DNA of 64,000 nt from Rhizopus arrhizus. Its lineage: Eukaryota > Mucoromycota > Mucoromycetes > Mucorales > Rhizopodaceae. The DNA is taken from contig JAKZZE010000012.1 in NCBI GenBank assembly GCA_024220505.1, positions 992,001-1,056,000 on the forward strand, read 5' to 3'. Every line of letters starts with the position of its first letter. Within the stretch, counting starts at the first letter, position 1. The position numbers and the translations under genes were made by a program. The notes under the pieces are model-generated. The model was not told where the DNA came from. It saw only the letters and a list, made by a program, of their open reading frames with translations, and made no database searches. Shown piece by piece: positions 15,657 through 20,568 of this stretch.

Positions 15657-16755
15657 TTTTGATAAAGAAGGAAGAAGCAGAAATAAAACGAGTTTTAAGT
15701 GTAATATTTATATCAAATGACCCTCAAATTAGATAATCGGGAACCCTTTCGTTTGGTCCCTGATTTCTATTTTTTTTTTTTTTCAGGGAAAATAGCGGAG
15801 TGTCAAACAGTACCATTTGTTCATTTGAATAAGGAAATAACAGTAAAGAACCAATAAATGAGGTTAGTTTTAATACACAAAATTGTATGATGTATACAAT
15901 GAAATAATCTATTCTGTAATGATTCTATAATGAGAATAGCGTGCAATAATACGATGTGATTGATTGTGATATTCGTTTAGCGATTCATGCAGATTAAGTG
16001 CTTGGATATCAAAGCAACAGTATAACTCTGTTGACAGTGAGAAAATGAATATGAATCAAATCAGCTATCATTTAAATTGTGAATTAAACGATTCTTTTTT
16101 CTCACGACAGAGCCCGATCGCTTTCCTGATCGAACAGTGTATGATGTTAGTCTTTATTATAAATATACTCTATTCAAATATATACACAAAGAATTGAGTA
16201 ACTTTAAAAGCTATATTCATATGATTTGTGTAGCGGATACAAGTTAAAAGATCTTGTTCATTTAAATTATTTTCAATAAGTAATGTCGCTCTATCACAAA
16301 CCATATTATTGCATTTCTTAAGAATAGATCTCATGTATCTTTAAATTAAACCTTACATTATCCCAAAGAAAACAAGTCTTATTTTTCAAAAGTAAGCGCA
16401 TTCTAAGAAATCAAAGAAATACTAGCCCTTCCACGATTTTTTGAAATTGACAATGATTGCTGTCTTCACAGGCGTGATACAAGGACAATGTTATTGATTC
16501 TGGTTGAGAGACTGTGACAAATTGGTAGAGAAGCAATTTTAAGAATCGTCCATATCCAAAAACATTTAGTGGATCATTATGATTCATCTTGCAAGGGATG
16601 ATCTTTCGGACCTTTTGAGTGTTACCAAAGAAAACCCCAATCTCTTTTTTCAGGATTTGATTGCTTCTTAATATATCCATAGAAGTCAAGTAGAGCTTTG
16701 AATTGTCAAATCATCTGATTGGCTACAAGTTACTAAAGAAGGTTTTGTTTCAGTG

Positions 16756-16795
<40 letters not shown>

Positions 16796-17315
16796 CCAAC
16801 ATAGTGATTTATTTCTCGTTTCAAATGACTCCAGATATCAATGAATTCATGGCATTGGCTAGCTAACCGTATCTTGAGGCTTCTCCAGAGTAAAAGTTAT
16901 GAGAGTAAATATAGATATTGATCTGATGCTTAGGCAGGAAGGTGTGTGAGTACACTATTTTAAGTAATTATCTGTAAACTGAATTGAAGTAATTGGAAAA
17001 AAGATAAAAATTGGTAAAGAAACGTAACACAATTGACAAGAAAAGAGTCCAAATAGAAAGCAAAGAAAATATCCAAATGTATATAAAATAAAAGAAATTT
17101 GGGTTCATCTTTGGTTGTGTTGTTTAGTATACTCACATGAAAGTGAGAATGATCATTGTGTGCATGGAGTTGAAAATATACATATAAAAAAGAAAATACG
17201 AGTTAAAACCTAAAAACCACTATTATATTTATCATTTACACTTAATGCTTCTAGATGTTGAACAGCGATAATTATTCAAGAGAAATTATCAGTTCCTTGG
17301 GAGGCTGGCTGAGTG
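15657..17315. other. Intergenic with 39-A homopolymer
   Basis: The first few hundred bases are the hexosaminidase upstream region. The rest is AT-rich spacer with a poly(A) run at 16756-16794. A 92-codon minus-strand frame (16411-16689) has no recognisable motif and is left uncalled. Confidence 0.45.
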
Positions 17316-18960
17316 TTAGTCTTGTAGGTCGTCAGCATGCTCTCTGAGTCTTCTTGGCCCTCTTGGTTGTTGAGGAACATCATATCCGAGCCTTTCAGGG
17401 ATCTAAACATTTCCACGAAGCGAACAAACAACATGCAACATGTTGAGGCAGGCAACTAATTTGCAATTCTAGAGGCGAAATTAGTCTCTACTGTTGGCAT
17501 CCCATTGTCATTATCTACTGACACTCGGCAGTTTTGATGTGTACATCTTAATAGGCTGTGTCTAATAACTTGCGGAAGGGCTTGTCTTCAATAAAGATAA
17601 GGATCAAGTGCCATTCGAAATATCTCCAGGGTCATTTCTTCAGAATCTGGGCAGTATTTACTTGTACAAAATTCATCAATCAAAACAATGTGAAAACCAT
17701 GCTTTTGAAGAAACCTTTAAAAAAGAACACCATGAATAGCCTCATGAAGCCTGGAGTTTGGATCAGACCAGTTTCCAATCACAAAGGTAGCTTAATCAGC
17801 AAACTGGTTCTTGAAATATGGCGATAGCTGAAGCTTTTGGTGAATCGGGTGAACAGTAGCATAGTTGACTCGTGTGCTCACATAATGAGTCTGAAGAACA
17901 GCAGTATGTTCAGAGCGACTGCTAAGAAAAGCAACGTAATATTCCATCTCCAAAGCTCTGGAATAAATTAAGCCACGTTCAGCTAGAGCAATGTTGTCGG
18001 GATTGATCTCTTGAAAAATATGACGGTAACTTTTTGACTTACAAGATTTGTCTTGCTGTGGGCTGATGTACCTGTATTGCATCGTCTCTTAAACAATAGA
18101 TCTTCATTAACACAGTAGAGTATATCTCTTCTTCTAGGATCAACAACCACACAGAAATATCCCATTAGTTGCTAATTTGCTGAGGGAAGATCCTCGATGA
18201 AGCTTGTTGATTCACATTGAACAGTATACCATGAAGAGTAATGACCTTGAGTATCAAACCGCTTTTTGAGAAAATTCACACCAACGCCACCTGTCTGAAT
18301 CGTTTCCCGGAAACGCAGATCACGATCTTCATCTCGAAAAGGTGAATTGTTTAAGTTAACCACTCCACACCAAAGAACTATCTGGTCAGCGCCATTTATC
18401 CATATACGGTCTAGGGTCTTTTGGCACAAGATCTTGCTATCAATAGTAGCAAAATAAGGTAACCTAGAGCAACGTAAAGGGAAGCAATTATAAGCCAAAA
18501 AGTTTAAAGCAGTAAAGGCCTGAGTAAATTGATAGAAAGCCTTGAAATGATCAACAGGATGGGCTTTAATACTATAATAGATAATGTTTTGGCTAAAAGC
18601 GTGACTGCGATCATATGCCAACAGAAGAGGGGCAAGCACATCCAAAGAACGACTATAGAGAAGGTTTTCAAACCACTAAGTAATCTCATCCATACCAGCT
18701 TGACTAATGATATGGACAAAGATGGCTTTTTTTGAAGTTTCTTACAGGAGTAGTGATAATGCGAGAAATCCCCACGGCAGTCGTCTCATGATCTAGACCC
18801 TGTTCATGACAGTGGCGTGCTGCCACCAAAGTATATTGACGATCCTATAGTAGATGATTAACTGCTCGCCTGAGGTGGTTAACAAAGCTCATCTGAATAT
18901 TGAGAGCATGAATATTGTATATCTTGGTGCTCTCATAGATTGAAATTTTTTGGGTGAACA
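17316..18960 (-). pseudogene. Decayed Fanzor (eukaryotic TnpB-like OMEGA nuclease) gene
   Basis: Read on the minus strand, conserved Fanzor segments follow each other in order but in shifting frames with stops. An N-terminal piece (IQMSFVNHLRRAVN, about 18930) is followed by NCFPLRCSRLPYFATIDSKI (about 18470), QTGGVGVNFLKKR (about 18270) and the RuvC-I strand VVVDPRRRDILYC with its Asp codon near 18140. Next come YRYISPQQDKSCKSKSYRHI (about 18060), IGNWSDPNSRLHEAIHG (about 17750), the zinc-finger stretch LIDEFCTSKYCP (about 17670), a second Cys pair (LRCTHQNC, about 17550), and the tail LNMLHVV...IPERLGYDVP ending at 17316. The Asn-Arg-Asp part of RuvC-III is not recoverable. Fanzors are RNA-guided DNA nucleases carried by eukaryotic transposons. 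This copy has several frameshifts and internal stops and cannot make a full protein. The family call rests on remembered motif patterns. It is flanked by Tc1/mariner and LINE scraps. Confidence 0.8.
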
Positions 18961-19139
18961 TAAACCAAAGTTGCTAGTATAGAACAGATAGGGCCATATT
19001 GATTTATACTTGTCTACTTCTATTTTTTATTTTATATTGTTCGCCTTGCCTTGCAGATAAAACACCTGTTAAATAAATGGACTTGTGGTGGGGTTCGTTA
19101 GATGAACACGATTAAAAATTTTTTATTTATATTAAAAAA

Positions 19140-19290
19140 AAAAGACTTGAGTGAACGCATGGTGCTTTTAATACACCTTAATCGCCCAAGTTAGATCAAA
19201 AAGGAATGAAAAAGGATCGAGATAACATCCTTTGGGATGATTAAATGAATATTGTGTTTTCCAAATGCATAAAAAAATGCAACTGCATTA
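19140..19290 (-). mobile_element. LINE 3'-end fragment (minus)
   Basis: Read on the minus strand, this stretch has the same arrangement as other LINE 3' tails in the window: CCCAAAGGATGTTATCTCGA, then CATTCCTTTTTGATCTAACT, then a GC-containing CGTTCACTCA end. It resembles 19850-20020 and the right edge of the window. No coding part is left. Confidence 0.5.
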
Positions 19291-19324
19291 ATGAGAAGCA
19301 ATAACTTAAACACGGAAGAAGATA

Positions 19325-19425
19325 AACCCATTTGTAGTCTCTTTTTCAATAAAGTCCCCCACATTAACAATTTTGTGAATAGAAGCATCGTCCATAACAA
19401 TATAATAGTTTTTTCCACTCATTCT
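19325..19425 (-). pseudogene. Tc1/mariner transposase scrap
   Basis: The minus-strand peptide KNYYIVMDDASIHK corresponds to the second catalytic Asp block of IS630/Tc1 transposases (compare YIVMDNAPIHK in the transposase at 46.7 kb). About 30 residues survive before the similarity ends. It lies between the Fanzor relic and LINE fragments. Confidence 0.6.
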
Positions 19426-19499
19426 TGTCAGTAACACTCATTACATTGTCTAATTAGTTAAAAAATGCTCAGTTCTTGTATCTATTTTTGCTCATGGAT

Positions 19500-20020
19500 T
19501 CCATCCTTTGATTTTCCATGTCCTATTCTCAATGCAGCAGATGTGTTCGTTGGAGGCTTGACTATCTGCCTAGTGACCAACCAAAGCCCTGTTTCAAGCA
19601 ATTTGATATCTCTTTTACTAAAAAGCATGTCATTCAATGTCTCGATATGCATCGAAAGTTATAAATGCCAATTACTGCTGAAGATCCTTCGTCTTTACTG
19701 CCTCTCTCGAAGACTACGTAACTTTCAATCCGTTTCATCCTGGTTCCTCCTCTGGCCCACCATGTGTCTGATTCTTTTTGAACTCGATTATCTTCATCAT
19801 CAGTAATTGCCTCCCTCACCTCCACTTTCTCCTAGAAAACGACTCTTAGACTGGTTGCCCCAGAACTAGCATTGATATCTATGATACGTCTTTCTCTCCT
19901 TACTCATTCCCTTTTTTTTCCTTGGCCCCAAAGGATACTTTTGATTCCTGTACACTTATTTTGATCTGGCTTGCGCGATTAAGTTATATTAAAAACGCTG
20001 CGTGCTCACAATCTTTTTTT
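19500..20020 (+). mobile_element. 5'-truncated LINE 3'-end fragment
   Basis: The plus strand contains the C-terminal LINE segment: KHVIQCLDMHRKL, then MPITAEDPSSLL. These align with HAIQCLNMHNRLQMP and ENPLSFLLNLLP of the longer LINE at 44.2-45.5 kb. Frameshifts are present. Downstream come the shared 3' tail (CTCATTCCC, a TTTGATTCC/GATCTGGC stretch, then GCGTGCTCAC) and an AT-rich terminus. Only the last few hundred bases of the element are here, as in typical 5'-truncated insertions. Confidence 0.7.
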
Positions 20021-20568
20021 TTTTATTGTAAATAAAAATTTATGTTTAGTCGTATATTAAACACAACGTCTTTTGGTAAGCTTTCTAGGCTATCGTCTGT
20101 AAGATATAGCTTATAGCATTTGTTTTTTTAATAAATATATTGTAAACGCTTTTTTTTTATTTCGATATTATCTTCAAAGCAAAAGAAAACGTATTGAGCT
20201 AATTTTTTCTTTTTCTTTTTGTAAACTCATCTCCAACAGGAACAATCAAACTTGTGTTGCACATACCGATTCGAAAACATCAACATAAATAGAGAGATCC
20301 TGACAATAGTTTTGGCTATAGCAACAATAAACATAATACATGTTCTCATTTATCCTTAACCTAACGACATTTTTTGTTCCTCTTGGCTTTTTTTTTATTG
20401 CATGTGTGTTTAAATATTATTTAGATGTAATCAAAAGGTATGTAGTTGAAGCACAATGATTTAAACATACGATTACTTATTTATGTGTGTATGATATGTC
20501 AATAAGTACATTACAGAGCCACCTTCCTTTAAACTGGGTTATTACGGAGGTGGCAATTGATTTTCAAA

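Follow-up and report, generated by a model that had tools for sequence, protein, structure and literature searches.

A truncated Fanzor1 relic of Rhizopus arrhizus, its putative Tc1/mariner-type element and a candidate omega-RNA hairpin behind the stop codon

Several described systems bear on the locus reported here, a relic of Fanzor1, a eukaryotic RNA-guided DNA nuclease, on the minus strand of a 64,000-nucleotide (nt) stretch of Rhizopus arrhizus DNA (hereafter the window; G000:C4:992001-1056000 in a 50.26-Mb, 41-contig assembly). In the accessible text of PMC11423790, stem-loop 1 (SL1) of the omega RNAs, i.e. the guide RNAs, of GtFz1, SpuFz1 and PpFz1 consistently has seven base pairs, the PpFz1 omega RNA is 75 nt long and its stem-loop 2 has four pairs. 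For Spizellomyces punctatus, the accessible part of Saito 2023 (PMC10432273) reports 134 'ghost' loci which have the ends and the guide-RNA region and no protein, and mariner-borne Fanzor1 elements, PGv-1 and PUl-1, are described in the corresponding part of Bao and Jurka 2013 (PMC3627910).

It is proposed here, with a probability of roughly 0.8, that the window carries a truncated and dead copy of a Tc1/mariner-type Fanzor1 element, in which a hairpin closely following the stop codon would represent omega-RNA SL1 with a role in retention of the element. The relic itself is another member of a known Fanzor1 type and the hairpin signature is its checkable part. Guide RNAs of Fanzors are difficult to recognize from sequence, and a stem of seven pairs that closes a constant UUAUCG loop directly past the stop codon offers a simple candidate signature that can be checked in at least three mucoralean Fanzor1 groups, decayed copies and deletion derivatives included.

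Identity and decay of the relic

A previous interpretation of the letters alone (the sequence-only reading) had placed a Fanzor relic of a mucoralean genome at 17316-18960. The blocks it had cited (ATIDSKI, QTGGVGVNFLKKR, VVVDPRRRDILYC, IGNWS, LIDEFCTSKYCP and IPERL) all lie on the minus strand within this interval and are spread, as it had stated, over multiple frames with stops in the minus-strand translations, while the nearest database proteins of a sister Fanzor come from Rhizopus and Parasitella, in agreement with the proposed origin. The feature exceeds this interval, DNA similarity to sister copies spanning about 18980 to 16951.

Nine further Fanzor loci of this genome supplied 40 open stretches (at least 80 amino acids (aa), read on the Fanzor-sense strand) as tblastn queries. 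They recovered Fanzor segments in order from 18979 to 17295 with a best E of 1.3e-49, compared to 3e-4 at best in 20 shuffled windows (2-base blocks); in the real window outside the relic, F/L-rich non-Fanzor stretches gave low-complexity matches down to 6e-9. The longest piece (18172-18675, 167 aa) matched Fanzor1 of Parasitella parasitica (PpFz1, PDB 9cf0) at E 1.9e-19 and Spizellomyces Fanzor1 (PDB 8gkh) at E 2.5e-4. In Pfam the relic pieces remained under the cut-off (PF07282, 15.6 bits vs 26.3); sub-threshold Pfam matches of these pieces to the unrelated EpmC and NARF were judged to be due to chance. RuvC-I and TNB zinc-finger blocks follow each other in order and are nearest to Fanzor1 proteins, and the minus-strand segment 18979-17290 is, as judged from these similarities, a Fanzor1 pseudogene. 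That it could be a fragment of a domesticated host gene or a chance set of motifs, a view to which the missed Pfam cut-offs lend some weight, is extremely improbable and can be considered refuted because of the PDB match and the contrast between the real and the shuffled tblastn results; at least 34 further places with similar DNA and the many stops also speak against it.

As counted by eye, the reading frame changes three times (near 18730, 18100 and 17490-17480) and is interrupted by nine or more in-frame stops (at about 18845, 18676, 18172, 18089, 17792, 17717, 17588, 17470 and 17405). In addition, the window copy has L*NCK where its sisters have LWNRD, and one zinc-finger Cys has become Ser. 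With its stops and frame changes and with the LWNRD motif and this Cys lost, the window copy has neither an intact open reading frame nor a complete set of catalytic residues and is, by all appearances of its sequence, a dead Fanzor1 member.

Relatives, element ends and transposase

The DNA search with 17200-19100 for which the sequence-only reading had called recovered sister copies; comparison with sister copies puts the 3' end of the element at 16951. All counts of relatives are lower bounds, as only the best candidates were scored. The search returned at least 40 rows from at least 35 places (window included); leaving aside the window and a 47-bp piece with 87%, identities are 66-81%. A genome search with the 167-aa region gave at least 96 rows, 30 of which were fetched as loci. 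In a tree of this region (28 rows, 26 different; bootstrap unsettled, L024 being a long branch), the window groups with L010, L015, L017 and L024 (100/98), in a clade that is sister to one of 14 rows (99/98) and lies apart from a PpFz1-like clade formed by L036, L038 and five Parasitella and Rhizopus proteins. Among 20 copies compared at their 3' ends, each deviates from the column majority at 9-18% of positions, mostly by transitions, and such star-like decay fits an old burst that would have been followed by neutral decay.

Similarity to sisters stops at 16951 with ...AATAGTGTA, a TAGTGTA end next to TA. An inverted match to this 3' end was found at L067:571 (24-mer, up to 4 substitutions), the remaining 24-mer matches in the loci examined being situated at 3' ends of family copies, and an inverted 5' end was recognized by eye in the C28 sister element. 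Copies of the L036 family end in CCCCACTGTA; two of them diverge past it, and a third locus ends 2 bases later. On the 5' side, a sister on C1 extends beyond the equivalent of 18980 and reaches, after some 1.5 kb, a 5' module (module 2, C1:2195.7k); other copies have a module 1 of about 0.5 kb in front of module 2 and, before that, transposase remnants reading the opposite way. The transposase-like stretch is present in 8 distinct places (the query's own included), in five of which it adjoins module 1 and diverges from it, and at C6:1258.3-1260.7k and C23:668.2-670.4k the Fanzor 3' part stands in series with both modules and a transposase remnant. Fragments of this stretch score 36.7 bits (L060) and 51.1 bits (L070) against IS630, for which the whole-protein cut-off is 100; Pfam gave nothing on three other short pieces. 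In the C28 sister a DDE reading (YIVMDN...YLPDYSPELNLIEQLW) lies directly upstream, on the strand opposite to the Fanzor. A DDE_3/IS630-like transposase is therefore represented through fragments in relatives only, the window copy being truncated and devoid of one.

Because of the 3' ends, the inverted end match and the transposase remnants, we conclude from sequence comparison that the element is probably a Tc1/mariner-type transposon; this extends the earlier account of the relic, both in length (to 16951) and in the assignment of a transposon type. Two observations count against the assignment, namely that the 5' terminal repeat occurs in only one window-family place (L067) and that a mariner fragment near L070 is in the wrong orientation. 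The 3' ends are clear in many copies and TA is present, a duplication being indistinguishable here from part of the repeat. It has to be considered that the Fanzor fragment was carried by another superfamily (MuDR) and that the mariner features belong to neighbours, since MuDR-type elements are reported for three Mucorales families in the accessible part of Bao and Jurka (PMC3627910) and a separate mariner-like relic lies 128 bp upstream, at 19108-20053. This origin is quite improbable in view of the short TACACTATTTT repeats at the ends, adjoining TA, of the DDE_3/IS630-like character of the transposase remnants linked to module 1 and of the C28 sister family, and of six family loci in which no long inverted repeats were seen, loci that may lack one end.

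The neighbouring relic at 19108-20053 is a repeat element in its own right. Its inverted ends measure 97 bp (77%), 74 pieces of the genome match it, and it contains a DDE_3 transposase scrap (YYIVMDDASIHK; 15.8 bits, under the cut-off). Its repeat pair was ruled out as the Fanzor element's own ends, given that it forms a separate family with relatives of about 560 bp.

Deletion has shaped many of the copies. Fifteen of the 40 rows of the DNA search start at query positions 1088-1116, L045 and L047 are devoid of the N-terminal half and RuvC-I as compared to full copies, and module 2 lies no more than 25 bp from the Fanzor 3' part in at least 8 places. Judging from this arrangement, many of the sisters arose by internal deletion and have retained the 3' end. 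Because of the proximity of module 2 to the 3' part, the idea that the sisters of about 1 kb are 5'-truncated retrocopies was abandoned, their middle being missing and their 5' end present. In the window copy the 5' part is gone from about 18980 on. Several family copies consist of two parts that face opposite ways, as though inverted internally; they are found at C41:913954-916490, C3:1214681-1215461, C23:2247353-2249405 and C40:1274690-1275385.

Intact sister copies had been anticipated as a new source of such systems. Long unbroken frames do exist: in the 167-aa search, the L025 family has six rows with stop-free frames of 617 aa and one with 639 aa, and the L036 family six rows with stop-free frames of 748-838 aa. 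Among the copies found of the window family itself, no unbroken full-length one was seen. As a kind, a mucoralean Fanzor is not a new source, Rhizopus and Mucor Fanzors being already published in the accessible parts of PMC3627910 and PMC11423790. A protein search with the L036 frame retrieved 76 proteins at E<=1e-30. Rhizopus delemar and R. arrhizus provided the best of them, which mostly have 70-93% identity over part or all of the query, and two Parasitella proteins have 60 and 65%. L036 (G000:C41:95509-98934) is an unbroken 838-aa Fanzor1 whose alignment to PpFz1 covers 698 residues and which therefore contains the RuvC insertion of PpFz1, reported in the accessible text of PMC11423790 from Parasitella and Rhizopus only.

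Further features of the relatives were recorded. L019 and L020 (G000:C28:64350-67476 and 89542-92669) are Fanzor elements with a few in-frame stops each, lying in opposite orientation about 22 kb apart and 99.46% identical over 3128 bp. Between C28:89158-96500 and C40:1259500-1265616, 313 of 339 positions (0.923) are identical in the 3' non-coding part and 1835 of 2146 (0.855) in the gene (Fisher P 4e-4), and in the L036/L038 pair the 3' non-coding part is not more conserved than the gene. An intron of about 45-70 bp precedes directly the second zinc-finger Cys pair in L012, L016, L018, L019, L025 and L036, and it is absent at 17545-17560 of the window and in L040, L043, L045, L047 and L048 of the window family, a difference that would reflect either loss or later gain.

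In seven of nine L025-family copies, the same 5'-truncated 3' end of an apparent long interspersed nuclear element (LINE; recognized by eye) stands before the 5' terminal repeat (loci compared: L025, L027, L028, L030, L031, L034 and L035 with L049 and L088-L092). The junction is at an identical base in all six copies for which it was read, three of which end in the LINE 3' untranslated region plus poly(A) and three in another repeat, and the flank beyond the Fanzor 3' end differs in every copy. This suggests that L025-family Fanzor DNA may have travelled as cargo of a LINE. Inspection by eye revealed no target duplication, and homing of L025-type elements into one LINE site was ruled out, only the 5' flank being common and the 3' flanks differing.

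Table 1. Features of the Fanzor1 relic and its element in the window
Feature	Position	Strand	Basis
Fanzor1 pseudogene	17290..18979	-	tblastn with sister Fanzors, PDB matches, list of open reading frames
RuvC-I block CVVVDPRRRDILYCVNED, catalytic Asp still legible	18100..18153	-	tblastn
TNB/zinc-finger remnant (LIDEFCTSKYCPDSEE ... LLRCTHQNC), intronless	17501..17716	-	Pfam, tblastn, intron comparison
C-terminal remnant RL*NCKLVACLNMLH...IPERL...HADDLQD	17319..17477	-	tblastn, sister comparison
Candidate omega-RNA stem-loop 1 remnant tgaataa-TTATCG-ctgttca, 6/7 pairs	17259..17278	-	
3' non-coding part of element, common with sisters to element end	16951..17289	-	
3' terminal repeat, Tc1/mariner-like, TA at end (reverse complement TACACTATTTTAAGTAATTATCTG)	16951..16974	-	
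5' limit of sister similarity; sisters' further 5' DNA missing	18980	-	

The hairpin behind the stop codon

The interval 17200-17320 had been suggested as the place to look for a scaffold remnant, and a conserved candidate hairpin is indeed located there, at 17259-17278. Its core is a seven-pair stem around TTATCG (a UUAUCG loop), the same loop being found in three Fanzor1 groups with different stems: TGAACAG/CTGTTCA in the window family, AACACAG/CTGTGTT in the sister clade, and ACCAAGG/CTTTGGT, ACCAAGG/CCTTGGT or ACCAAAG/CTTTGGT in PpFz1-like copies. The window copy keeps six of the seven pairs about 10 nt past the coding remnant, the hairpin of L045 and L047 begins 7-8 nt past the stop, and in most PpFz1-like copies a four-pair hairpin, AATA-CAGG-TATT, follows 5 nt past the seven-pair one. 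The UUAUCG or TTATCG motif was not found in the main texts of PMC11423790 and PMC10432273, and it is not claimed as unpublished. Rfam returned nothing for 16500-20500.

The stem shows covariation. Across 32 rows (30 distinct) of the 20-column hairpin alignment, from which L043 (3-nt gap) and L019/L020 (2-nt gap) were dropped, 85.2% of cells are paired, compared to at most 46.7% in slid versions. All seven pairs show changes on both sides in some row; 35 cells are changed on both sides, a number reached in 0 of 500 shuffles, and the other scores were as high in 19 of 500 (pairs with double changes) and 2 of 500 (pair types). A 3' profile of the sister clade, built without the window family, matched seven independent window-family copies at the same place with E 0.0009-0.07 (L044, L045, L047, L010/L042, L061, L043 and L085).

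A held-out test used the first 100 of 678 genome places of GTTATCGC and the 21 Fanzor rows in the tested range, 7 of which, as loci used for motif discovery, were excluded. At six of the 14 remaining places GTTATCGC lies on the same strand 1.05-1.46 kb downstream, at none upstream, and at one it is on the opposite strand (chance expectation 0.18; P about 1e-8). All six positives form 5 to 7 of the 7 pairs; since five of them are PpFz1-like, they do not represent independent origins. The 8-mer is lacking at the other eight places, four L025-type rows among them. A covariance model of the window and sister groups, made without the PpFz1-like group and run on 23 sources (113 kb), gave eight matches to E 1, consisting of the window (part of the model), six hairpins behind non-model Fanzors (L101 at E 8e-5; L099, L102, L036, L038 and L103 at E 0.12-0.22) and one stray, and the PpFz1-like hairpins are thus among its few matches. 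At E<=1 it found nothing in L001-L008, L023, L025, L086 and L087 and missed the hairpin-bearing L096, L098 and L100.

A number of results weigh against this interpretation. The hairpin was first spotted by eye, for which reason the shuffle controls lean towards it, and its 5' side is shortened in L019/L020. The sister-clade profile missed the window copy itself at E 1, the stray covariance match (L011) reached E 0.52, RNAalifold detected no structure in a 61-column alignment, and 140-nt 3' folds were no better than shuffles in four of five cases (window z +1.1), the fifth (L020, z -1.3) being situated within the 3' non-coding region. The examined loci contain 19 TTATCG hairpins (15 distinct, 12 of which follow Fanzor genes), while 60 control loops average 3.5 and one of these likewise reaches 19, and GTTATCGC is not enriched genome-wide (678 vs 858 for the reversed pattern). 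The 3' region of L025 is without TTATCG, and no hairpin match was obtained at eight further PF07282 places, L001-L008.

Taken as a whole, the comparisons indicate that the 3' hairpin is probably part of a guide RNA, and by analogy it fits the published omega-RNA SL1. It is rather unlikely that the hairpin behind the relic is a DNA or mRNA feature (transposase binding, processing or termination) and that the omega RNA lies at the element end near the flank. For such an arrangement speak the distance from hairpin to element end, about 170 nt in PpFz1-like copies and about 310 nt in the window family, the conservation of the entire 3' non-coding region in the C28/C40 pair, and the Spizellomyces scaffold, which according to the accessible part of PMC10432273 reaches the element end, the guide being variable sequence beyond. 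On the other hand, the seven pairs, the constant loop with a changing stem and the place past the stop fit the published description of the PpFz1 RNA, as does the subsequent four-pair hairpin of PpFz1-like copies, and the terminal 140 nt (window, L044, L045 and L025) do not fold unusually.

Under the omega-RNA interpretation of the hairpin, the living ancestor would have carried a DDE transposase reading one way and a Fanzor reading the other, between TACACTATTTT.../...AATAGTGTA ends at a TA target. The transcript past the Fanzor stop would have folded the seven-pair UUAUCG-loop hairpin as the first omega-RNA stem-loop, and the omega RNA would have guided the RuvC nuclease to matching DNA, probably the site vacated by excision, where a cut would have led to repair restoring the element. 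A single old burst would have multiplied the family, in part through copies with internal deletions in which the ends and the guide-RNA region were preserved. The position of the hairpin raises the question of where the guide came from: either the RNA was long and extended into flanking DNA, as that of Spizellomyces does, or a short RNA had its guide inside the element, near-identical in every copy. It is conceivable, if doubtful, that with the scaffold of Mucorales behind the stop and an RNA as short as 75 nt, the guide was internal and directed to one fixed target and not to the flank of each copy.

Comparison with described systems

Among solved structures, PpFz1 of Parasitella parasitica is the closest relative of the relic. 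The L036 family aligns with it over 698 residues and has a seven-pair and then a four-pair hairpin as in the description of the PpFz1 RNA, whereas the relic belongs to another Fanzor1 clade, is broken and has a different stem sequence. As among the Spu-1 'ghost' loci, there are deleted copies in the family that lack a full protein and retain the guide-RNA region together with the element ends; in contrast to these, the copies described here are old, still span about 1 kb with the C-terminal half of the coding region, and have their candidate scaffold elsewhere than at the end of the element. PGv-1 and PUl-1 occur in other hosts, three Mucorales families being reported as MuDR-type; as far as the accessible part of their description goes, PGv-1 and PUl-1 resemble the element proposed here in combining a Fanzor1 with a Tc1/mariner transposase and TA ends.
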